A stretch of DNA of 64,000 nt from Planctomycetota bacterium (GTDB lineage Bacteria; Planctomycetota; Phycisphaerae; Phycisphaerales; SM1A02). The DNA is taken from NCBI GenBank assembly GCA_022574595.1, contig JACZRS010000002.1, positions 1-64,000 of the forward strand. The letters run 5' to 3'. Position 1 is the stretch's first letter; each line of letters starts with the position of its first letter. This document shows positions 41,063-61,286 of this stretch, one piece after another. Both the position numbers and the translations under genes were made by a program. The notes under the pieces were generated by a model. It had not been told where the DNA came from. It made no database searches and was given only the letters and a program-made list of their open reading frames with translations.

Positions 41063-42013
41063 TTGGAGGAAGATGTTGCATGTCGCAAATGTGATTACAA
41101 CCTTCGAGGAATAACACCTGATAGCTGCTGCCCGGAATGTGAGACAGCTATTGAATGCACATTACATCCTTCTCTTCTGCGCTTTTCCGATTACCAATGG
41201 CTTTCGCGAGTGCGTTCGGGTTTGAGCCTTATGCTTTTATTCATCATTGTTGTGATTGTCATGAATATATTCTGGATGGTTGCAACTTTCGTCTTTGATA
41301 TAGGATTTTCAGAAGACTCGGTCGGCCTGGAATTGTGCATTGCAATCTTTATAATTATTTTTATTGTGTTGGAGACTATTTCTTATCTGCGCATTACCAC
41401 TCTTGAATCAAGTGAGCAGTCAGCCAATGGTAGAATTACAGCTCGTAAATTGGCACGCATTGCTTTGATAGCATCAATCATTGCGGGCGTGATCGCAATG
41501 ATGTCAGATACTAATAGCTATACTGCGTTTTTTCCTGATGTTATCGAGATTCCCTTGCTGGCGAGTATCTCATATTGGACAAGCCATGCCAGCTCACTCT
41601 TGAGCATTGTTGGAATGTTTGCACTGTTTGATTATGCACATTCATTTGCGAAGCGTTTTCCCGAAGATCGACTTGCTAAAACTACACGCAGAGTAATGTG
41701 GGGTTATATGATTCCAATAATCGCGTTCAGCATTTGGTTCATTGCTATAGAAATAGCTAACAAATATGATCTAATAGATCATTCATCTATGACTATCAGT
41801 AATGTTTACATGGTTGTACAAATAGTTATTGGCGTACCAATTCTGGTGTTCGGCATTTATGGAATAGTACTGATATTTAAGTATCGCAATCAATTCACAA
41901 AAGCGATGAAGCTTGCAACAAAGCAACGCGAACTATTAATTTCTCAAATCAATCTTGAAAACTCGGCTGCTACTGTTAACCTGAATAGCCCATTGAGCGA
42001 TGAAAAAGGCTAG
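41063..42013 (+). CDS. Zinc-ribbon membrane protein, disrupted paralogue
   Basis: 316 codons from TTG 41063, in the same frame as the 40967 fragment. It begins EEDVACRKCDYNLRG and CCPECETAIE, a CxxC...CPEC zinc ribbon at the N-terminus, followed by about six membrane helices. The sequence is strongly similar to the next gene (RFSDYQWLSRVRSG against RFSDLAWIKRVRSG, and the ending FKYRNQFTKAMKLATK). No good ribosome site precedes TTG 41063, so unless re-initiation occurs the protein would not be made in full. It ends three bases before the next gene. Confidence 0.62.
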   Translation: MEEDVACRKCDYNLRGITPDSCCPECETAIECTLHPSLLRFSDYQWLSRVRSGLSLMLLFIIVVIVMNIFWMVATFVFDIGFSEDSVGLELCIAIFIIIFIVLETISYLRITTLESSEQSANGRITARKLARIALIASIIAGVIAMMSDTNSYTAFFPDVIEIPLLASISYWTSHASSLLSIVGMFALFDYAHSFAKRFPEDRLAKTTRRVMWGYMIPIIAFSIWFIAIEIANKYDLIDHSSMTISNVYMVVQIVIGVPILVFGIYGIVLIFKYRNQFTKAMKLATKQRELLISQINLENSAATVNLNSPLSDEKG

Positions 42014-42016
42014 CAT

Positions 42017-42943
42017 ATGGATAACAACTCAATTGAAACTCCACCGGCGGTAAAATCGCAATTTATTCAGTTGCAGGAGCTTGGGGTTTCGTTTGATGCA
42101 GACGGCCGCTTGGATGAAGATGTTGTTTGTAGAAGTTGTGAATACAACCTGCGCAGCTTGACACTGCAAGACAAATGCCCGGAATGTGATACGCCAATCA
42201 AACTTTCTCTACAGACTTCGCTTCTTCGCTTTTCAGATCTTGCGTGGATTAAGCGAGTGCGGTCAGGAATTACTTTCATGATCGTGTATGTTTCTATTTA
42301 CATTCTATATTTCGCTAGTTGGGATCTATATTCTATTTTAGGCGGAACAGTTTTCCAGAGGACGCCTGCTGTACGGATAGTTTTTTCGATTGTGATTCTG
42401 GTGCTGCAAATAATCGCTATCTTGCGTATTACCAAACTCGAACCAGGATGGCAGAAAACAAACTCGAAAGTGACTGCGCGCAAACTGGCAAGGATCTGTT
42501 TGCTCCTTGCAGCCGTAATTGGAACGTTTTCGAGTAACCCACAGTGGTTTATTTACTTCATACCGTATATTACGTTAATACTTGCTCTATCCATGTGGGT
42601 TGGACTATTTAGTACGTTAGCACTATTCATCGGCAAATTTGCGCTATTTTACTATGGTCGATCAATTGCACAACGTTTTCCCTCTGAGAAATTGGCAAAG
42701 ACTACATATCTCGTCATGTGGGGGTACTTAGCCCCTTCTATGATATCTCCTCTTATAAGTTATGCCGCACGGTTCACATCCCATTATGAAATATTTAACA
42801 TTTATACAAGTGAGTTGTATACATCTTTTAATTTAATTCGCTACTTTATGGCGATCCTATTTGCTATATTCTGCATTTGGGGGCTTGTCTTGCTATTTAA
42901 GTATCGCAGTCAATTTACTAAAGCAATGAAACTTGCAACTTAG
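42017..42943 (+). CDS. Zinc-ribbon multi-pass membrane protein, intact paralogue
   Basis: A 308-aa protein. The zinc ribbon is at about 40-64 (VVCRSCEYNLRSLTLQDKCP then ECDTPIK), followed by about six membrane helices and a basic tail ending KYRSQFTKAMKLAT. It starts three bases after the disrupted paralogue and lies in a probable operon with it. Membrane-embedded redox, transport or stress function is possible, but nothing points to one. Together with the three minus-strand genes, five zinc-ribbon membrane proteins lie within 4.4 kb. Confidence 0.72.
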   Translation: MDNNSIETPPAVKSQFIQLQELGVSFDADGRLDEDVVCRSCEYNLRSLTLQDKCPECDTPIKLSLQTSLLRFSDLAWIKRVRSGITFMIVYVSIYILYFASWDLYSILGGTVFQRTPAVRIVFSIVILVLQIIAILRITKLEPGWQKTNSKVTARKLARICLLLAAVIGTFSSNPQWFIYFIPYITLILALSMWVGLFSTLALFIGKFALFYYGRSIAQRFPSEKLAKTTYLVMWGYLAPSMISPLISYAARFTSHYEIFNIYTSELYTSFNLIRYFMAILFAIFCIWGLVLLFKYRSQFTKAMKLAT

Positions 42944-44979: not shown

Positions 44980-45723
44980 ATGAGCTTCAGCAACACAGCC
45001 GGCACCTCGATCATTCCAACACTTAGCCGCATTGTGCTCTGTGCAGCGTTTTTACCTGCTGGGTACTACATGTTATTTGGTGAAGAAGTAGAATTCTCTG
45101 GCATAAGAGCTGATAGGCTTATAGAGCTGGGGGTAATAGATGCTCCAGCGCAGGCCAGAATTTCCACTAAGCCTTCCATCATCCTCACATCTTGGCAGGA
45201 AGCCGAGGAAGATCCAGTGGCTACACAGCCACCTGATACAGAAGAGCCTTCCGCTACTGAAGAAGATGTAGATATTGATGAGGCTGCGGAAGCATCATCT
45301 GACACTGAAACACCATCCACTACAGGTACTTTCAAAGCCAGGCCAGTGCATAACTTGACTTTAAGGCTCGATGATGCAGGATTGCCAGCCCCGAATTGGC
45401 TAGCCATATTAGCTGCGTGGACAGAGCTAGTGGGTGGTGCACTTATACTTGTAGGATTTTTAAGTCGTCTCTGGGGGCTTGCACTTACAATCGCCATGGG
45501 GGCTGCGTTCTACCTCATAACTTGGCCTAACTTGACAAGTGGCGGTTTCTTTTCCGTGCTTTTTGGAGGTGACACGGATTTGCTGCACACGATGTTTAGG
45601 CAGCTTGGCCTCTTTGTATTGGCCTTTGGCGTGTTTATGACTGGTGCTGGGCCACTTAGCCTCGATCGAGCACTGTTTAAGAAATCCAGCCAGGATGATG
45701 AGATAGAAAATGAAGAGGAGTGA
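44980..45723 (+). CDS. DoxX-family membrane protein with acidic insert
   Basis: A 247-aa protein. The first helix (RIVLCAAFLPAGYYMLFG) begins a DoxX-type four-helix fold, but about 90 acidic Pro/Thr/Glu residues (AEEDPVATQPPDTEEPSATE) separate it from the remaining helices (ELVGGALILVGFLSRLWGLA and later). DoxX proteins act in redox or thiosulfate:quinone chemistry in some archaea; here the role is unknown. AAGGAG before the ATG supports the start. The vWA operon begins 100 bp downstream, but a link is uncertain. Confidence 0.72.
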   Translation: MSFSNTAGTSIIPTLSRIVLCAAFLPAGYYMLFGEEVEFSGIRADRLIELGVIDAPAQARISTKPSIILTSWQEAEEDPVATQPPDTEEPSATEEDVDIDEAAEASSDTETPSTTGTFKARPVHNLTLRLDDAGLPAPNWLAILAAWTELVGGALILVGFLSRLWGLALTIAMGAAFYLITWPNLTSGGFFSVLFGGDTDLLHTMFRQLGLFVLAFGVFMTGAGPLSLDRALFKKSSQDDEIENEEE

Positions 45724-45820: not shown

Positions 45821-46852
45821 GTGCAAAATCCCCCTCATCCCCCTCATCCCCCACATCCCCCACACCCCTCTGCAGAACCAGAGCCGGACTATACCGCCCA
45901 GAAATTAGCTGAACTGGGAGTTGAAACGCCTAATGAGCGAACAGCAAAACGCTTGATTCCATGGATTGCGTCCTTTGGCCTACATGCGCTACTTATCGCA
46001 TTAGGATTCCTTCTGACGTGGACGGTCATCCAATTACAAGAGCGTGAGCCAACTCTCATCGTTGCTGATTTTCATGCGCTGGTGTATCAACCAGTCGCTT
46101 CGATGGAAGATGAATTAAAGCAAGAAAAGATCACGCAGGACCAGGAAAAAATAAAGCCGATTGACAAATTGTTATCTGAGCAATTAGCAGAGTTAAAGAT
46201 TGATCCACTTAGCGCTATCTCTGATGCAACTTCGCCTCCTCGAGCTATTGACTTTTCGCCCGATCCATCTGCTAACGCAGCTACATTTGTTGGGCTTCGC
46301 AGTTCAAATGCAAAGCGAATCGTCTACGTCATCGACGCATCCGGCTCGATGATTCGCTCACTCCAAATTGTAATTCAAGAGCTTGCGCGATCAATAGAAC
46401 GACTCACGCCGCAGCAGAGCTTTGGACTTATTTTCTTTCAGCGAAATGAAGCTTTGATGGTTCCGCCAACTACTCGCTTGGTAAGAGCAACGCCGGACGC
46501 GAAGATACAAGCATTAAAGTGGATTGATAATGAAGTAATACCCGCAGGGCGATCCAACCCCTTAAAAGCTATTGAAAAAGCGCTTAGCTTTGAGCCTGAT
46601 GTTATCTTCCTGTTAAGCGAAAACATCACTGGTTCAGGTGAATTTGAAATAGATCAAGAAGACTTGCTGGCATTATTAGATAAGCTAAATCCTATAAACA
46701 AAAAGTATAACAGGCGGGCAACGCTAATAAATTGTGTGCAATTCCTATATCCCGATCCACTTAACACACTTAAGAAAATTGCTGAGCAGCATGGTGGCAC
46801 CAACGGCTACAAGTTTCTAACTGCCCGCGAACTAGGAATAGAAGCACCATGA
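45821..46852 (+). CDS. vWA-domain protein with TonB-like membrane anchor
   Basis: A 343-aa protein. An N-terminal PPHPPHPPHP repeat is followed by one membrane helix (about 49-71) with the sequence ASFGLHALLIALGF. Ser51 and His55 match the SxxxH motif of TonB anchors. A periplasmic linker follows, then a von Willebrand A domain with MIDAS DASGS (Asp172, Ser174, Ser176). The normal TonB C-terminal fold is absent. The gene is followed by a TPR gene and ExbB-ExbD-ExbD genes, so the vWA domain may be driven by this proton motor. GTG 45821 is the likely start, in a 9-bp (CCCCCTCAT-type) repeat; GGAG lies 11 nt upstream. Confidence 0.82.
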   Translation: MQNPPHPPHPPHPPHPSAEPEPDYTAQKLAELGVETPNERTAKRLIPWIASFGLHALLIALGFLLTWTVIQLQEREPTLIVADFHALVYQPVASMEDELKQEKITQDQEKIKPIDKLLSEQLAELKIDPLSAISDATSPPRAIDFSPDPSANAATFVGLRSSNAKRIVYVIDASGSMIRSLQIVIQELARSIERLTPQQSFGLIFFQRNEALMVPPTTRLVRATPDAKIQALKWIDNEVIPAGRSNPLKAIEKALSFEPDVIFLLSENITGSGEFEIDQEDLLALLDKLNPINKKYNRRATLINCVQFLYPDPLNTLKKIAEQHGGTNGYKFLTARELGIEAP

Positions 46853-48033
46853 AACTTAAATGGCTAATAATTCTAGTAGGCTGCATTGGAACTGTAACTA
46901 ATAGCGCCAAAGCAGATAGTCTTACCCTAATTGGTTTATCGATACCCTTAAAAGGTATTACCATACGCACAATTCAGAATGGGCGTATCTATTTATTTGA
47001 TGCATCTGACCGTCAAGGCTCGCGCGAGCTCGATGAAATCGATAGCATAAGCTTTGATGATTTAAAAGAAATGGATCTGGCTGAGGCAGAATTTGCCAAG
47101 GGAAATTATCATTCCGCAGTTGAAGGTTTTTTAGTTGCTGCGCTAAAGGCCAAGACAGATGTGCATCGACTTTGGATATATCATCGTTTAGCGCAATCAC
47201 ACAATTATCAAGGCCAATATGTACAAGCGGCCGGCCACGCTGCTACTGTTTTTATGTTGCAGGATGATGATTTATATTGGCGCAGACTAGTTCCGCGTGG
47301 GGGTGTAAATGAACCAAGTTATGCTGCTGCTGCGGAAACAATGCAGAAACTTCGCGATGCTGCGCGCAAAGTAAAGCAACCACAACTAAAGCGATCAATA
47401 AATGAGATGACCGCTGCTGTTCGCCCTATTTTCGATAAGCTCAAATCTAACTATAAGGGTGAGCCTTACAAATCGGGTAGCACTATTTCGGGAATCGAAA
47501 AATCGCAGATTGGTAAAGCTCGCATTGAAGCTGCCAAGGCAAGTCACCAACCCATAGAAAAACCCAAGCCGCCTAAGACTCCTGTTGATGTAACTGGCAG
47601 TATAAAACCGAACCCGCCGCGGCGAGCAACACCATCATCCAGAGAATCAATAGGGCCTACTTCTGCCAGCGCAATTGATGATCTACTGGCTGAAAATAGA
47701 GCGATTGATGCAGTTGAACTTTGTAAACGCATTGCAATGAATCCGGGTGATCGAGAGTTGGATCGCTTTTTACATCAATACGGCTTGGCACTTTTAAGAA
47801 CAAATAAAAAACCCAAAGCTGCGATCATGTTGCTGCAATGCGCGATATCATTTCCCGGTTCGCAGTACGCAGCTTCCAGCTTGATTGAAACCGCATTAAT
47901 CTATGAAACAGTTTATAACAAACCGGATACCACAATACGTTTACTGGAGCGTGCCGTTGCAATTGCTACAACACAACAACAGGCAGATGCTGCAACACGA
48001 GCCCGGCGTGAATTGGCGCGATTGAGACTGTAG
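46849..48033 (+). CDS. Exported TPR-like protein
   Basis: A 394-aa protein with a signal peptide (MKLKWLIILVGCIGTVTN, cleavage after SAKA). A first helical domain (LAEAEFAKGNYHSAVEGFLV, then VHRLWIYHRLAQSHNYQGQY) has TPR-like repeats. A Pro/Lys-rich linker (KPKPPKTPVDVTGS) leads to a second TPR set (AVELCKRIAMNPGDRELDRF). It probably acts as a periplasmic scaffold for the vWA or ExbD proteins. The ATG overlaps the preceding stop by 4 bp, showing translational coupling. No enzyme motif. Confidence 0.75.
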   Translation: MKLKWLIILVGCIGTVTNSAKADSLTLIGLSIPLKGITIRTIQNGRIYLFDASDRQGSRELDEIDSISFDDLKEMDLAEAEFAKGNYHSAVEGFLVAALKAKTDVHRLWIYHRLAQSHNYQGQYVQAAGHAATVFMLQDDDLYWRRLVPRGGVNEPSYAAAAETMQKLRDAARKVKQPQLKRSINEMTAAVRPIFDKLKSNYKGEPYKSGSTISGIEKSQIGKARIEAAKASHQPIEKPKPPKTPVDVTGSIKPNPPRRATPSSRESIGPTSASAIDDLLAENRAIDAVELCKRIAMNPGDRELDRFLHQYGLALLRTNKKPKAAIMLLQCAISFPGSQYAASSLIETALIYETVYNKPDTTIRLLERAVAIATTQQQADAATRARRELARLRL

Positions 48034-48069
48034 CTAAACTACAAGCCCTACTTTATACAAGATTTTCGA

Positions 48070-48960
48070 TTGGAATCGACATTGAATCTCATCCAGAAAA
48101 TACACATACCCCGAAAAGTACCCCGAAATGTTTTGTTTGCTTTATTAGGTATTGGTACCGTGGCTGGTTTTGCTGCTATTGCATATGCACAAGGTGATAC
48201 TCCGACTGGAAGCACATCCGCGGGTGGAGGAGGAGGAAGCAGCTTTGCGGATATGTTCTTCATAGCTCGAAAAACCGAAGTAGGTGGTGATGGCAAATCA
48301 ATAGAAGTCCTCGGCAGCTTACTCATTTGGTTCTTGATGTTGCTATCAATGTTAAGTATTGGCTTTATTGGAACCATGGCTGCGACCAATCAACGCAAAT
48401 CCATTGCCCCCAGCTTATTGATTGAAGAAGTAAGGCGCATGCTTGGCGAAGGTAAGTATCGCGAAGTAATTGATCTGACAGAAACTGATGAGAGCTTTTT
48501 CAGTAAAGTGATGAATGCATCATTGCGCGAAGCAAACCATGGTTTTAGTGCTGTAATCCGCACCTTAGAACAAACTTCAGATGAGCTGACAACGATTCGG
48601 CTGCGCAAGATTGAATATCTAAATGTGCTGGGACAAGTTAGTCCGATGATCGGTCTATTTGGCACAGTGTATGGAATGATCCTGGCGTTTCAAGCTATTG
48701 TTGCAGCTAGTGGTAATGCTGATCCTGTTCTTTTAGCGGGCGGCATTGGTACTGCACTAACCACGACATTTTGGGGTTTGGTTGTGGCTATTCCCGCACT
48801 ATCAGGATACGCAATCATTCGAAATAAGATTGATGAACTTACAACTGATGCCACGCTACGGGCTGAGGAGTTGCTTAATCAATTTAGACCTAAGCCAGCA
48901 AAGGCCGCTGCCGGTGCCATTAAAACAAAACAGGTCCCGCGTACAAAACCGACTACCTAG
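48070..48960 (+). CDS. ExbB/TolQ/MotA-type proton channel
   Basis: A 296-aa protein. It has an N-terminal signal-like helix (VLFALLGIGTVAGFAAIAYA), a Gly/Ser stretch, then the ExbB core: a helix (LLIWFLMLLSMLSIGFIGTM), a large cytoplasmic loop and the conserved pair LGQVSPMIGLFGTVYGMILAF and GIGTALTTTFWGLVVAIPAL. These are the pore helices of TolQ/ExbB. With ExbD it conducts protons and energises a TonB-like partner. The N-terminal signal-like segment is an addition seen in planctomycete homologues. TTG 48070 is the most likely start; a second TTG follows 12 bases later. Confidence 0.88.
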   Translation: MESTLNLIQKIHIPRKVPRNVLFALLGIGTVAGFAAIAYAQGDTPTGSTSAGGGGGSSFADMFFIARKTEVGGDGKSIEVLGSLLIWFLMLLSMLSIGFIGTMAATNQRKSIAPSLLIEEVRRMLGEGKYREVIDLTETDESFFSKVMNASLREANHGFSAVIRTLEQTSDELTTIRLRKIEYLNVLGQVSPMIGLFGTVYGMILAFQAIVAASGNADPVLLAGGIGTALTTTFWGLVVAIPALSGYAIIRNKIDELTTDATLRAEELLNQFRPKPAKAAAGAIKTKQVPRTKPTT

Positions 48961-48994
48961 TGATTGGGTGCTGTAAGATATAGAGAATAAGTAA

Positions 48995-49465
48995 ATGAGT
49001 GTTGTAACAAAACGAGGCTTGGCACGTGTTGAAGCGAATCTCACGCCGATGATCGACGTGGTGTTTTTGCTGATCGTGTTCTTTGTTTTGGTATCACAGA
49101 TTGTAGATTTGGAGAATATAAAGGAAATAACACTTCCTGCGCTGATTGATCCTGCAAGTGAAATTGCAGGCGAAGAGCAGCGTGTGGTTGTGAATGTTGA
49201 GCCGGGCATAGATGGTGATGTTAAACGCTACAAACTTGGTGGGCAGTTTTATGCAGCTGACTTGCAAGGCATAAAAGCCATGACCGCACACCTTGCGGAT
49301 TTATACAAACTCAATCCCTCGCTGAGCGTTAATCTGCGTGCCGATGCCAGTACGCATTACCAATGGGTTGAGCCGGTCATGCAAGCCGTGGCTAATGCTG
49401 CGGTTCTTTCGCAGCAGCCTAATGCGGTTCCTAGAGTTAATCTTGTTGTGATAAGGGAGGATTAG
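48995..49465 (+). CDS. ExbD/TolR-family protein, first copy
   Basis: A 156-aa protein with a short cytoplasmic tail, one membrane helix and a periplasmic domain. The helix begins NLTPMIDVVFLLIVFFVLVS with proton-carrying Asp21, the residue required in ExbD/TolR. The periplasmic domain (about 60-156) has the expected alpha/beta composition. It follows the ExbB-like gene by 34 bp. The next gene encodes a second ExbD, so a heteromeric stator is likely. Start ATG 48995. Confidence 0.9.
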   Translation: MSVVTKRGLARVEANLTPMIDVVFLLIVFFVLVSQIVDLENIKEITLPALIDPASEIAGEEQRVVVNVEPGIDGDVKRYKLGGQFYAADLQGIKAMTAHLADLYKLNPSLSVNLRADASTHYQWVEPVMQAVANAAVLSQQPNAVPRVNLVVIRED

Positions 49466-49468
49466 CCT

Positions 49469-50017
49469 TTGCCTGATGGTAAAATTAATCCCTTTGATGG
49501 AGCGTTTCAGTTAAGAGCTGAAGACGAGATTATTGCGCACACTCGTATTGGTCAGCGAAGAGGCAGGGAAAACGCACGAATCTCTCTTAACCTTGTAGCA
49601 ATGATTGACGTTGTGTTTTTGCTATTGATTTATTTCCTGACAGTTACGGATTTCAAGTTGGGTGAAGAAATATATCGCATGGATTTGCCGCAGCGTCAAC
49701 CATCTGCACAGTTAGCAGATCCATTTGAGTTAGATGAAGATCCGCTTCGGATATTTATTGATTCTGCAGGTCGGGATTTTGATCAATATGTAATTTCCCT
49801 TAGCGGGCCTTATGAAAGCCCAGCTACGTTTGAAGATTTATATGATTTTCTACATCAGCAGCAAATAAGTGAGGTTACAACCGGTGGCTTCTTTGCTGCC
49901 AATCACCCCATCATTGTCCAGCCAGAACGTAGTGTTCGCTGGGAACATGCAATCGAAGCGTTTAATGCAGCTGCAAAAGCGCGGTACACAAATGTCACGT
50001 TTAGCAAACCGAGATGA
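49469..50017 (+). CDS. ExbD/TolR-family protein, second copy
   Basis: A 182-aa protein with a longer basic cytoplasmic tail (HTRIGQRRGRENARISLNLV), a helix with proton-carrying Asp47 (MIDVVFLLLIYFLTVTDF) and a periplasmic domain. TTG 49469 is supported by GGGAGG eight bases upstream. The stop overlaps the next ATG by 4 bp. Having two ExbD genes is common in planctomycetes, where the pair may form a mixed stator around ExbB. Confidence 0.88.
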   Translation: MPDGKINPFDGAFQLRAEDEIIAHTRIGQRRGRENARISLNLVAMIDVVFLLLIYFLTVTDFKLGEEIYRMDLPQRQPSAQLADPFELDEDPLRIFIDSAGRDFDQYVISLSGPYESPATFEDLYDFLHQQQISEVTTGGFFAANHPIIVQPERSVRWEHAIEAFNAAAKARYTNVTFSKPR

Positions 50018-52659
50018 GAATGCAGCTAGTGTTTGAATTCGCGCATAGACATTTGAAGAAACCCCACGGATTGCTATCCGTGGGCGTCGTGGTGGTACTT
50101 ACACTTTGTGGTAGTGCTGAAGCGCAGTCTCTTGAAGAGCAGCTTGATCGGGAACGTTTTCTGCGCGGCTTAAGTGAACTTAGATTGCCTGAGGTTTTAG
50201 CAGAATATATCGCAGCGCATCCTGCTGGTAATGAAGTCGAAGAGGCAGACTACCAGATTGCAGCCCAGAAGATAATCGTTCATGATCCCAGTAAATCCGC
50301 AATAGAACGTGAAACAGCAGCCGAGGTAGTACTGCAAATTCGCAGGAAAATAATTACCAGTCATCCCAACGACATTCGACTATGTACCTGGCGCGCAGAG
50401 CAGGCTTCGGATTTGTTCTTCGTGATATTGCCCTTTGAAGCCTCGGGCATGACCAACTTATTTGGTTATCCCTCAAAGCAACAAAAAGATCGCGCTAAAA
50501 GCGTTGCAGCGCAAATGAACGAGCTTATGGCTGAGGCGGAAATTGATATCGAAGACGCGATATTAGAATTGGAATCACAACCTGATTATGTAAACGATTT
50601 TGCTGCCCAAATGAAAAAACGCAGACTCGTAGATGAGGAACGAGATCAACGCATTCCCTTTCTTAGAGGTATCGGGGCTTTTCTTGATGCTGAACTTAAT
50701 GTAGATGATAGTGCTAAAAAAAGAGAGCTATTTGAATTAGCATCTGAACTTCTAGTTGATCTGGCTAAGATTTTAGATGGTCAGGCAAAGCATACTGCGC
50801 ATTTATATGGAGCAATGGCGCTATCTCGAATTGGCGAGTATTACACAGCTAATTCGCTCTTTAAGAATATTATCAGCCAATCCAAAGATTCTCGAATCGT
50901 ATTATCTGCGCTCCTAGCGTCAACTCAAAGTCTAGCGATTAAAGATGGCGCACAAGCTGGCATTGATGCACTAACAACTTTGTCCGAGCGGCCGTTTGCG
51001 GTAAAGGATATTTTTCTACAGATTCTTATTGCGGATCAGAAATTTTTAATTAAACGCAAACTTGCAATGCAAAGTGGTTCGCAGAAAAAAGACGAGTTAA
51101 TGAAGGAAGCATTTCGTTCTTATACGCAGCTACTTAATAGAGATCTGCGCGTTGATCGTGATACTGTCCAGGCAGTCATTTTTTCCCGATTAACTCTTGC
51201 TGCATCGGATGATAACACTCCACTAGATCAATTACCCGCACTGGTTTCGATTGCGCGGGCCAAGCACCTTGCAGGCAAAGATGATACGCGTAGCCAGGGA
51301 ATTGAGCTTTTTGAAAACACTCTTGCGCGTTCTGATATACCTAAATCCGAACGGGCAATTGCCATCTTTGGCTTGGCAAGTGCTCAATATACCGATGGCC
51401 AGGCAGTGCAAGCAGTAAAGACGTTTACATTATTAGCTAAAGAGCATACAACCGACCGTAATGCTCAGCGATCGATAGAAATAGCTGCAGGAATTGCAAC
51501 TGATCTTTTCCGTCAATCTCCTGATGATGAACAATCGCGCGCTTTGCTGCACCAAACACTAGATTTATTACTAAGTAGATATCCAAACTTGCCAAACATT
51601 GACCAGTGGCGCTATACCTCCGGCCAATTAGCGCTAGTAGAAGAAGACTACGATGTTGCGCTTGAGCTATTTGGAAAAATCACTCCTGATGCATCACAGT
51701 GGACAGGCGCACAGTTCATGAAGATCAATGTATTGCGCTCATGGGCAAAGAGGCAGGAAAGAACCGTTGATAAGAAAGATCGTTATCAACAATTGTTAAT
51801 AGTATTGCCGCAAGTTAGAGAAAAGTTAATTAAATCTGCCAGCACTTCTAATGATAAAGATAAATCTCAAACCCTAAACAGGAACATCCTAAGACTGCGG
51901 ATCTTTGAGGCGGAAGCTCTACTAGCGACAAATGATCCACATGAAGCAGCTATGGTATTAACTAGAATCGAAAATGAAGCTGCTATTGACAGCACAATGC
52001 TGGGTGAAGTATTACTTATTCGCATCGATGCTTATTACGCAGATGGGCGCAGCGAAGATGTCCCTTCGGAGCTTGATAGCTTGATAAGACTAGCGCCTCT
52101 TGAAGCTGGTAATATTTTATCCAACATGCTTCAAGTGCGCAAGCTCAGCGTGCAGGAATTATTGGAGATTAGCCTTGATGAACAAGCAGCTGAGAAAGCT
52201 CAACTGGAGCTATTACCAATTGCACGCGCAATAGACCGCTGGTTAGTAGGCGAAGGGATCAGTCTTGAAAATGATGCGCTTAATGCACCAAGGCTATGTG
52301 CTGCGGATGGGTTGCGGCTGAGCTTGAAATACTCTGATGCGCTGAGGCTTTATGACGATCTGATTTTAAGTCGACCCGATGCTGTTGAAGCTCTATTCGG
52401 TCAAGCTGAATGTTGGATAAACCTAGGTGATTCAAACCTTGCAAACGCAATGAGAACGTATCGAAGAATCACTGCTGCGGGAGAGGATGGTAAATACTAT
52501 TGGCCGTCTCAGTTACGGATGCTGCAAATCCTGGATCGCATTGGTAGAAACACGGAAAAAATTGCTCCACGAATCAGGCGATTGCGAAAGCAAGACAGCA
52601 CGCTGGGCAGTGAACGATGGAGGCGTGGATTTGAAATACTGCAAAATAAATATTCATAA
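50014..52659 (+). CDS. Large exported TPR protein
   Basis: An 881-aa protein. The N-terminus has a signal peptide (HLKKPHGLLSVGVVVVLTLC, cleavage after AEA). The body consists of helical repeats, with blocks such as LYGAMALSRIGEYYTANSLF and ALRLYDDLILSRPDAVEALF typical of TPR. No enzyme motif. A 29-bp REP-like element at 50061-50089 lies in the signal-peptide codons and supplies PHGLLSVGV. The gene closes the vWA-ExbBD operon, overlapping the ExbD2 stop as ATGA; a second ATG at 50020 could also be used. The protein could be a periplasmic receptor or structural partner of the motor. Confidence 0.8.
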   Translation: MRMQLVFEFAHRHLKKPHGLLSVGVVVVLTLCGSAEAQSLEEQLDRERFLRGLSELRLPEVLAEYIAAHPAGNEVEEADYQIAAQKIIVHDPSKSAIERETAAEVVLQIRRKIITSHPNDIRLCTWRAEQASDLFFVILPFEASGMTNLFGYPSKQQKDRAKSVAAQMNELMAEAEIDIEDAILELESQPDYVNDFAAQMKKRRLVDEERDQRIPFLRGIGAFLDAELNVDDSAKKRELFELASELLVDLAKILDGQAKHTAHLYGAMALSRIGEYYTANSLFKNIISQSKDSRIVLSALLASTQSLAIKDGAQAGIDALTTLSERPFAVKDIFLQILIADQKFLIKRKLAMQSGSQKKDELMKEAFRSYTQLLNRDLRVDRDTVQAVIFSRLTLAASDDNTPLDQLPALVSIARAKHLAGKDDTRSQGIELFENTLARSDIPKSERAIAIFGLASAQYTDGQAVQAVKTFTLLAKEHTTDRNAQRSIEIAAGIATDLFRQSPDDEQSRALLHQTLDLLLSRYPNLPNIDQWRYTSGQLALVEEDYDVALELFGKITPDASQWTGAQFMKINVLRSWAKRQERTVDKKDRYQQLLIVLPQVREKLIKSASTSNDKDKSQTLNRNILRLRIFEAEALLATNDPHEAAMVLTRIENEAAIDSTMLGEVLLIRIDAYYADGRSEDVPSELDSLIRLAPLEAGNILSNMLQVRKLSVQELLEISLDEQAAEKAQLELLPIARAIDRWLVGEGISLENDALNAPRLCAADGLRLSLKYSDALRLYDDLILSRPDAVEALFGQAECWINLGDSNLANAMRTYRRITAAGEDGKYYWPSQLRMLQILDRIGRNTEKIAPRIRRLRKQDSTLGSERWRRGFEILQNKYS
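50061..50089 (-). repeat. REP-like element family 2, copy B, within a signal peptide
   Basis: On the minus strand this matches the 31135 element over all 29 bp except two paired changes (T to C and A to G in the stem). It interrupts nothing: the coding frame is kept and encodes part of the hydrophobic core of the signal peptide. Confidence 0.75.
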
Positions 52660-58883: not shown

Positions 58884-61286
58884 ATGCGATTTGTAACAGC
58901 TATATTTGCGCGAAAATTGGTCGTAATAGCCTGGGTGATGATGGTCGCCGGGGTGGCTTGTGGGCAATCCACGCCGCCTCCAGAGACAGATCTGGATGAC
59001 CGTCCAGTTTCAGCCATTCACCTGGAAGGGCTGCAGCGCGTCAACCAACAATTGGTAAGAAACCAGCTTAGATCAGCTGTGGGTGATCCATTTGATTGGG
59101 ATACGGTAAAAGCAGATATCAAAATCCTAGATCGCCTCGGAGAGTTTGGCTCGGTTAGCGCTGAAGCTGAACTGCAAACGGATGGCTCGGTGGCCTTGAT
59201 CTTCAAATTCACAGAGCAGAAGATTATCCATGCGGTACAAGTTGTGGGTAATCGTGTGTTGCCCGATCAGGATTTACTTGCGGTTTGCCCTCTCGAAGGA
59301 AGTCCACGCGATGATTTTCTGATTGAAAATTCTAAACGAGCAATGAAAGCTCTTTACCGTAAGCGTGGCCACTATCTATCAACAATAACAGTAGACAAAG
59401 TTGAACTGGATACCGCTGGAATTTTGTTGTTTCGTATTGTTGAAGGGCCACGCGTTAAGATTAAGGCTATCGAATTTGAAGGTAATGCCGCATTTACTTC
59501 AGATCAGCTCTACGCAGAAATCGCTACACGGACAGCTGTAATACTTTTTCGTCGTGGAGAACTCGATGAAGAAAAAATTGCAGATGATGAAGCTGCAATC
59601 AACCGTTTCTATAAGAACCGAGGATACCTTGATATTCGTGTTGGACACGGAATCGATCTGAGCCCTGATCAAACAGAAGCGAAAGTTGTGTTCTTTGTCG
59701 TTGAAGGACCACAGTACATATTAAGATCCATAAGTACTGATCCTCAAACGCTAGGCGTATTTTCAACCCAACAGCTTCTTGCAATGCTCGATATCAAACC
59801 TGGGGATGTGTACGCACAGGATAAAATTCGCAAATCCATTGGCATCATCGCTGATGCCTACGCCAAATTGGGCTACAAGCTAACACTTCGCACAGAATCA
59901 GGTCGCCTTGGAATGGGGCGGATCGATTGGGAAACTACGCATACGCCAGAGAGTGCTTCTATTGATTTGAGACTAATCATTGACGAGGGGGAGAAGATGA
60001 TGATTGGCATTGTCCAGGTCAACAACAACACACTCACACGCTCAAAGGTTGTGCATCGAGAGCTACGTCATCTTAGGCCTGGAAGGCCTCTTGACAGCAC
60101 TATGATCGATAAAGCCATTCAGCGACTTCGAAGAACCAATCTATTTAGCCAGGTGAATATTACAGTTATGGATCCAGATCCTGATAACCCTGGATACCGA
60201 GATCTATTAGTCTCCGTAAATGAGAAAAACACTGGTTCGGTTAACTTTGGTGTAGCGGTGGGATCAGATGCTGGGGTGTTTGGTGAACTATCGCTTGTGC
60301 AGCGTAACTTTGATATTTCTGATTACCCCGAATCCGTACGTGAATTACTATCCGGAAAAGCATTTCGTGGTGCCGGCCAAAAATTCGCAGCTACACTCAG
60401 GCCCGGCGATGAATTCTTTCAATACTCGATGAGCTTTACTGAACCACATATATTTGAAACAGACAATTCTTTTCGTATTTCCGGTTCGTTTAGGGACAGG
60501 CGCTTTAGACGTTATGATGAGGAACGAATAACACTTGCGCTTGGGCTTGGCAGAAAATTCGGTGACTTTTGGAATGTCTCGGTAAATACCAGCTTTGAAA
60601 GTGTGGCGCTTAATAACATCGATGACTTTGCGCCCACTGCAATTTTTGATGATGCGGGACCAAATGACATTTCAACATTGGGGGTAACCTTGACCCGCAC
60701 CACAGTTGGTACTTTGAACCGACCTGGTCGAGGCAGTCGATTGGAACTTAGACTGGAACAAACCGGACTCTTGGGAGGCGACTTTGATTACACAACCGCC
60801 TCAACGGAATACACAGTGTTCTTGACACTGGATGAAGATTTCCTCGGCAGAAAGTCAATCCTAAAGCTCAACACACGTGCTGGATATATCTTTGGCGGTG
60901 ATGCTCCAACGTACGATAGTTTCTATATGGGAGGTAGATCATTTAGAGGCTTTGATTTTAGAGAAGTAAGCCCCAAGGGAATTAGAGCGGATAACGGCCA
61001 GCCTAGTGATGATCCAATCGGCGGTGATTGGTTGTTCTTCGCAGGCGCGCAATACGAAATGCCACTATTAGCTGAGAACCTAACCGGAGTTGTTTTCCTT
61101 GATACAGGTACAGTGACTGATAATTTGGGATTTGATGAATATCGCGCTTCAATAGGGTTGGGACTTCGGATCTATATTCCTCAGCTTGGTCCGATTCCGA
61201 TTGCTTTTGACTTTGCAATTCCAATACTTAAAGAGGAAAGTGATGATGAGCAATTGCTTAGTTTCAGTGCTGAAGTCCCCTTTTAG
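58884..61286 (+). CDS. bamA: Outer-membrane assembly factor BamA
   Basis: An 800-aa Omp85 protein. A signal peptide covers residues 1-25 (LVVIAWVMMVAGVACGQS). POTRA repeats run from about 40 to 370 (AIHLEGLQRVNQQLVRNQLR, then IHAVQVVGNRVLPDQDLLAV, VKIKAIEFEGNAAFTSDQLY and MMIGIVQVNNNTLTRSKVVH). The beta-barrel follows at about 390-800, ending in aromatic Phe (SFSAEVPF), as required by the BAM machinery. The conserved barrel segment YMGGRSFRGFDFREVSP is present. It assembles outer-membrane proteins. The first gene of a bamA-ompH-ompH-lpxD-lpxC block. Confidence 0.93.
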   Translation: MRFVTAIFARKLVVIAWVMMVAGVACGQSTPPPETDLDDRPVSAIHLEGLQRVNQQLVRNQLRSAVGDPFDWDTVKADIKILDRLGEFGSVSAEAELQTDGSVALIFKFTEQKIIHAVQVVGNRVLPDQDLLAVCPLEGSPRDDFLIENSKRAMKALYRKRGHYLSTITVDKVELDTAGILLFRIVEGPRVKIKAIEFEGNAAFTSDQLYAEIATRTAVILFRRGELDEEKIADDEAAINRFYKNRGYLDIRVGHGIDLSPDQTEAKVVFFVVEGPQYILRSISTDPQTLGVFSTQQLLAMLDIKPGDVYAQDKIRKSIGIIADAYAKLGYKLTLRTESGRLGMGRIDWETTHTPESASIDLRLIIDEGEKMMIGIVQVNNNTLTRSKVVHRELRHLRPGRPLDSTMIDKAIQRLRRTNLFSQVNITVMDPDPDNPGYRDLLVSVNEKNTGSVNFGVAVGSDAGVFGELSLVQRNFDISDYPESVRELLSGKAFRGAGQKFAATLRPGDEFFQYSMSFTEPHIFETDNSFRISGSFRDRRFRRYDEERITLALGLGRKFGDFWNVSVNTSFESVALNNIDDFAPTAIFDDAGPNDISTLGVTLTRTTVGTLNRPGRGSRLELRLEQTGLLGGDFDYTTASTEYTVFLTLDEDFLGRKSILKLNTRAGYIFGGDAPTYDSFYMGGRSFRGFDFREVSPKGIRADNGQPSDDPIGGDWLFFAGAQYEMPLLAENLTGVVFLDTGTVTDNLGFDEYRASIGLGLRIYIPQLGPIPIAFDFAIPILKEESDDEQLLSFSAEVPF

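Follow-up and report, generated by a model that had tools for sequence, protein, structure and literature searches.

A candidate proton-driven vWA force transducer encoded with an ExbB-ExbD motor in a Phycisphaerales genome

A six-gene operon of the proposed vWA force-transducer class

We analysed a stretch of 64,000 nucleotides (referred to as the window) from the genome of a Planctomycetota bacterium, a 4.1 Mb draft whose nearest named relative is the Phycisphaerales metagenome-assembled genome CP070772.1. Between positions 45821 and 52659, the window carries six genes that run head to tail on the plus strand and overlap or are closely spaced, and this operon probably encodes a vWA-class force transducer that spans the envelope, is driven by the proton motive force (PMF) and acts on exported TPR proteins. 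The idea of a vWA force transducer is not new, having been proposed in 2025 (PMC12204202). To that proposal our analysis adds the invariance of coupling residues across orthologues, a duplicated cassette and vWA-TPR fusions, together with a D-box-like strand, an altered loop in the metal ion-dependent adhesion site (MIDAS) and a genomic context in which Ton and TolB are missing.

The vWA-ExbB-ExbD-ExbD-TPR gene set that had originally been predicted for this interval was borne out by the listing of open reading frames (ORFs) and by Pfam, the six genes being the following:

45821-46852, plus strand: putative vWA force-transducer protein (343 amino acids), with a short cytoplasmic N-terminus, a transmembrane (TM) helix carrying an SxxxH motif, a disordered linker and a C-terminal vWA domain
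46849-48033, plus strand: exported SH3-like/TPR protein (394 amino acids)
48070-48960, plus strand: ExbB/TolQ-type proton-channel subunit, Pfam PF01618 (MotA_ExbB), E 6.8e-26
48995-49465, plus strand: ExbD1/TolR-type subunit, Pfam ExbD, with the codon of TM residue Asp21 at 49055-49057
49469-50017, plus strand: ExbD2/TolR-type subunit, Pfam ExbD, with the codon of TM residue Asp47 at 49607-49609
50014-52659, plus strand: large exported TPR protein (881 amino acids), proposed target of the transducer, Pfam TPR_16/TPR_19

The membrane anchor of the vWA protein

In an AlphaFold2 model of the vWA protein built on an orthologue alignment, the long helix and the vWA domain were predicted with confidence and the linker between them with low confidence (mean predicted local distance difference test score, pLDDT, of 86). 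The pLDDT was low from about residue 75 to 145 and exceeded 90 in the vWA fold that follows, and the model contained one N-terminal TM segment only. Three segments of the protein are referred to below:

45956-46027, plus strand: TM helix, residues 46-69, pLDDT 91-98, with the Ser51 codon at 45971-45973 and the His55 codon at 45983-45985
46052-46090, plus strand: D-box-like segment, residues 78-90, directly after the TM helix and flanked by Pro77 and Pro91
46310-46849, plus strand: vWA domain, residues 164-343, with Asp172, Ser174 and Ser176 as the DxSxS motif, Ser245 at the fourth MIDAS position and the fifth, an Asp, replaced (LLSEN)

The TM helix (PWIASFGLHALLIALGFLLTW) contains no Asp, and its SxxxH motif consists of Ser51 and His55, as numbered from the GTG start at 45821. 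Because, among 277 hydrophobic segments at the N-termini of other ORFs, 6 also contained SxxxH, a single occurrence is weak evidence. The vWA protein was then searched in 60 related genomes, in which 60 loci were read with six-frame profiles. Among 58 Phycisphaerales orthologues, only His55, Asp172 and Gly175 formed invariant columns, and the position of Ser51 was occupied by Ser in 55 sequences and by Ala in 3. When the search was widened to the phylum, with 40 further loci, SxxxH was kept in the best hydrophobic segment of 38 of 41 matches, the three exceptions being two sequences without a clear TM helix and one duplicate copy. The original prediction of an SxxxH anchor, for which conservation of the Ser and His in orthologues had been set as a test beforehand, is thereby upheld. 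As a pointer only, Escherichia coli TonB (9ddo_F) aligned in the exact Ser/His register in a PDB profile search, at a non-significant E of 0.37.

A low-complexity CAT/CCC run (CCCCCTCAT/CCCCCACA) that would code for PHPPHPPHP was observed at 45821-45870, where the vWA gene appears to start. Since the GTG at 45821 lies in this run and the orthologue alignments mostly start downstream of it, the residue numbering, though not the motif, may shift, and the true start of the vWA protein may lie downstream of the run.

Just past the TM helix, the closer orthologues share a P..(I/V).A(D/E)F....P pattern, and the window protein has the proline-flanked segment TLIVADFHALVYQ. In TonB, the D-box is a strand that is captured by the ExbD dimer (PMC10907165). 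By analogy, the segment would sit where TonB has its D-box, and may therefore be regarded as D-box-like.

The vWA domain and its metal site

The C-terminal part of the protein had been predicted to be a metal-binding vWA domain replacing the TonB fold. The Pfam VWA_2 match (E 3.8e-5) fell below the curated cut-off, and the fold was assigned by Foldseek and VIA-align, with the inter-alpha-inhibitor heavy chain superposing at Z 19.3 and a root mean square deviation of 2.2 over 163 residues. A vWA fold in place of that of TonB is thus predicted with Z up to 19, but the term metal-binding was overstated. Among the 58 orthologues the MIDAS residues were largely kept (Asp172 in 58, Ser174 in 57, Ser176 in 53, and Ser or Thr at the position of Ser245 in 55), whereas the fifth position, canonically the Asp of an LTDG loop, was variable and the loop read LLSxNITG in most members. 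Judged from these residues, metal binding by the window protein is plausible. Several relatives of the group labelled f2 have a degenerate first MIDAS motif (DASGAM, DASGPS and DGSGAT), and a bound metal is probably not what the members have in common.

The same domain also raises the alternative that the operon drives motility or adhesion at surfaces and that its vWA domain handles an adhesin at the cell surface, a role for which the 2025 account offers the analogy of myxobacterial gliding (PMC12204202). vWA domains are classic adhesion modules, which would fit such a role, but no adhesin recurred among the genes profiled at the loci (part of the neighbours being annotated), and the degenerate motifs of the f2 members do not favour it either. 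We consider a drive of this kind unlikely.

The ExbB-ExbD motor and its association with the vWA gene

Both predicted ExbD proteins were confirmed by Pfam (E 1.5e-16 and 6.7e-14), and the TM Asp of the proton path was invariant in each, with Asp21 of ExbD1 found in 43/43 and Asp47 of ExbD2 in 46/46 sequences. ExbB showed the strongly conserved channel segments GLFGTVYG and TTFWGLVVAIP. The best NCBIfam matches of the motor genes were tolQ and tolR, at scores far under the equivalog cut-offs.

The association of vWA, SxxxH and ExbBD, which the original prediction proposed to look for in other genomes, recurred widely: ExbB, ExbD1 and ExbD2 stood beside the vWA gene at 45 of the 52 loci with an orthologous vWA protein. 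The large TPR gene was also present with the motor at 43 of these loci, and the gene of the 394-amino-acid protein was recognised at 26. The close vWA family was found in nearly all Phycisphaerales sampled, and a vWA-family match of any strength in 345 of the 393 genomes of the phylum-wide search.

We had expected vWA loci without a motor to lose SxxxH. This was rejected, as the motif is kept there. The f2 genomes concerned carry ExbB and ExbD at other loci, and in six genomes of another group (f4) the close ExbB orthologue was found at a separate locus, with 50-57% identity. Both observations suggest that a motor encoded elsewhere can serve the vWA protein in trans, and this would account for the persistence of SxxxH.

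The TPR proteins and vWA-TPR fusions

Two exported TPR proteins had been predicted. The larger is recognised as such by Pfam, whereas the 394-amino-acid protein has no significant TPR match by Pfam and owes its assignment to an AlphaFold model, which comprises a signal peptide, a small SH3-like beta barrel and two TPR bundles. The C-terminal bundle of this model superposes on the TPR domain of YbgF/CpoB (TM-score 0.80 to the target). It resembles many unrelated TPR proteins too, and the fold matches were therefore not taken as indicating function.

Four f2 relatives (L199-L202) combine an SxxxH helix, a vWA domain and a C-terminal TPR-related part in one reading frame of 857-981 codons, with the SxxxH motif intact. 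A profile of the 881-amino-acid TPR protein matched the C-terminal parts of these fusions with 32 to 110 bits. At other f2 loci (L083, L084, L086 and L089), the vWA and TPR genes are adjacent with no ExbBD between them. As read from the sequences, the gene fusions suggest that the 881-amino-acid protein is the direct partner or target of the vWA protein.

Several points weigh against a force transducer of this kind. The fusion loci and the other f2 loci have no adjacent ExbBD, and the close ExbB orthologue is gone from their genomes, the best match showing about 33% identity, which means that SxxxH there must either work with a different motor or serve a different role. In several Planctomycetia matches, too, SxxxH is retained and ExbBD is lacking in the vicinity. 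As far as the alignments go, only the closer orthologues show the D-box-like segment clearly. Finally, a literature search, with many journals and all preprints outside its coverage, returned no experimental follow-up on any member of the class.

Ton, Tol and Bat pathways as alternative explanations

Having ExbB, ExbD and an SxxxH helix, the operon could in principle belong to a Ton system that drives nutrient uptake and whose transducer has lost the TonB C-terminal domain. However, no TonB_C domain (PF03544) and no TonB-receptor Plug domain (PF07715) were found in the host genome, and relatives that do possess Ton also have the vWA operon (each of the two domains was found in 27 of 61 genomes). 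The missing receptors largely refute the Ton reading, which we rejected as highly improbable.

A classical Tol system was rejected as well, since TolB_N (PF04052) was found in 0 of 61 genomes, in a search that detected its positive controls. OmpA/Pal-type domains (PF00691), in turn, were present in 61 of 61, those of the host lying on contig C5 (loci L250/L251) and unlinked to the vWA operon. With TonB_C and Plug absent from the genome and TolB_N from the whole set, the earlier claim of a machine distinct from both Ton and Tol is supported, presumably one that produces force.

A more specific version of our interpretation is that the operon serves this lineage as its Tol-like system, in which vWA replaces TolA, the TPR proteins stand at the place of CpoB, and the whole would keep the outer membrane attached while the cell divides. 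It would fit the near-ubiquity of the close vWA family among the sampled Phycisphaerales, the lack of TolB_N next to universal OmpA/Pal-type domains, and the YbgF/CpoB-like bundle. But TPR bundles resemble numerous proteins, the operon contains no Pal or TolB-like gene, and another locus of the genome looks more Tol-like: on contig C1 (L096, 75-90 kb), genes for a TPR protein of 1050 amino acids, ExbB and ExbD are followed by one for a 1589-amino-acid protein with PD40 beta-propeller repeats, and this may be the real Tol-like locus. Taken jointly, replacement of TolA and a role in division are a tentative possibility.

Bat vWA proteins are membrane-anchored and found near TPR proteins, and the vWA protein might accordingly be a Bat-like regulator or assembly factor of ExbBD or of the TPR proteins instead of a force transducer. 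The Bat model, however, leaves the invariant TM His and the phylum-wide SxxxH unexplained; moreover, the window protein has a single, N-terminal TM segment, and no MoxR- or DUF58-type neighbours of its gene were found in the ORF listing or by Pfam. The Bat reading was accordingly rejected and its regulator variant is, in our estimate, quite improbable. Neither Bat nor Tol, which had been named beforehand as possible explanations of the locus, was thus supported.

A paralogous cassette elsewhere in the genome

A paralogous six-gene cassette with a gene order identical to that of the window operon was found on contig C4 (L094, about 96.5-102.8 kb). It encodes a vWA protein (with SIVVH and a complete MIDAS), a 358-amino-acid exported protein, ExbB, ExbD, ExbD and an 855-amino-acid protein. 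Pairwise comparison of the two cassettes gave E values of 2e-19 for vWA, 1e-27 for ExbB and 7e-8 to 2e-7 for ExbD, and a profile linked the 881- and 855-amino-acid proteins (49 bits, 1.4e-16). The 394- and 358-amino-acid exported proteins are linked by position and size only. SxxxH was present in 28 of 29 orthologues of the C4 vWA protein (sequences covering that region). A pyrH-like gene adjoins this cassette, and the same neighbour was seen in a relative (L099). At a further locus (L097, 7209-7910), an ExbB-like gene has no ExbD neighbour among the ORFs listed for the locus.

One might go further and propose that Phycisphaerales possess two proton-driven vWA-TPR envelope machines, paralogous and working in parallel, which replace Tol-Pal and in which vWA pulls on a large periplasmic TPR scaffold, not on TolB or a receptor. 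This we regard as rather doubtful.

Proposed mechanism and meaning

In the force transducer that we favour, a ring of ExbB in the inner membrane would serve as the proton channel, and proton flow through ExbB-ExbD would turn a rotor pair composed of the two different ExbD proteins. The single TM helix of the vWA protein would dock on the outside of ExbB via Ser51/His55, as in TonB and TolA, and the proline-flanked strand just past the membrane might be gripped by the periplasmic domains of ExbD in the manner of a D-box. The disordered linker of about 60-70 residues would then pass this pull on to the vWA domain. The domain would act on the exported TPR proteins, mainly that of 881 amino acids, and by way of these proteins on the outer membrane or wall. 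Docking, strand capture, force and the TPR protein as target are all steps that we infer, as is a cellular role in envelope maintenance, possibly a Tol-like one. The same docking model was reached independently with AlphaFold 3 in the 2025 account (PMC12204202).

In this lineage, which often lacks Ton and in which no TolB was detected, the machine may do the envelope work that is done elsewhere by Tol-Pal. The known outlets of ExbB-ExbD motors are few, namely Ton, Tol and some motility systems, and a vWA output domain, if true, would show that this motor accepts different hands. The proposal of 2025 has moreover been made testable, as residues to mutate are now named and the fusions point to what vWA holds.

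Neighbouring genes

44980-45723, plus strand: DoxX-like membrane protein with a long acidic insertion, immediately upstream of the vWA gene, Pfam DoxX, E 7.2e-12

This gene was found at 35 of the 52 vWA loci, and it is uncertain whether its product is part of the machine. Further along the window, an Omp85/BamA-family barrel gene at 60363-61268 (E 3e-48) is the sole Omp85 match in the genome, and its presence indicates that the host has an outer membrane. At 41063-42943, a tandem pair of paralogous proteins with multiple TM segments was observed, with an N-terminal, zinc-ribbon-like CxxCxYNLR motif.

Comparison with known systems

The window operon shares with Ton the ExbB/ExbD motor, the SxxxH helix and a proline-flanked, D-box-like strand, but differs from it in having two different ExbD proteins and vWA and TPR partners, and in a genome with no TonB_C and no receptors. 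With Tol-Pal it has in common a TolQ/TolR-type motor and an exported TPR partner; unlike Tol-Pal, it has no TolB and no Pal in the operon, and no TolA C-terminal domain was found. As in BatA/BatB, the vWA protein is membrane-anchored, yet here it comes with ExbBD, one N-terminal TM segment in place of the flanking TM segments of Bat proteins, and no MoxR/DUF58 neighbours.

The closest precedents are found in the work of Williams-Jones et al. 2025 (PMC12204202), which describes, on the basis of predictions, vWA force transducers encoded by such a set of genes in members of the Planctomycetota-Verrucomicrobiota-Chlamydiota (PVC) group and already proposes for them a PMF-driven machine differing from Ton and Tol. 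Its TolR-like transpore-helix (TPH-vWA) class resembles the window operon in combining a vWA protein with one N-terminal TM helix and an adjacent TolQ homologue, but is described there as having no ExbD and a TM Asp, whereas the window operon has two ExbD proteins, SxxxH and no TM Asp (PMC12204202). Compared with the SHLS-type transducers as presented in the available part of that account, the window operon has its vWA gene first and its large TPR gene last, adds a second exported SH3-like/TPR protein and an incomplete MIDAS, and is accompanied by a paralogous cassette in the host genome and by vWA-TPR fusions in relatives. The likenesses extend from the Ser...His TM helix, the disordered linker with a predicted motor box and the C-terminal vWA domain to the adjacent TPR, TolQ-like and two different TolR-like genes (PMC12204202). 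On every feature testable here, the window operon is a member of the SHLS-type vWA force transducers.

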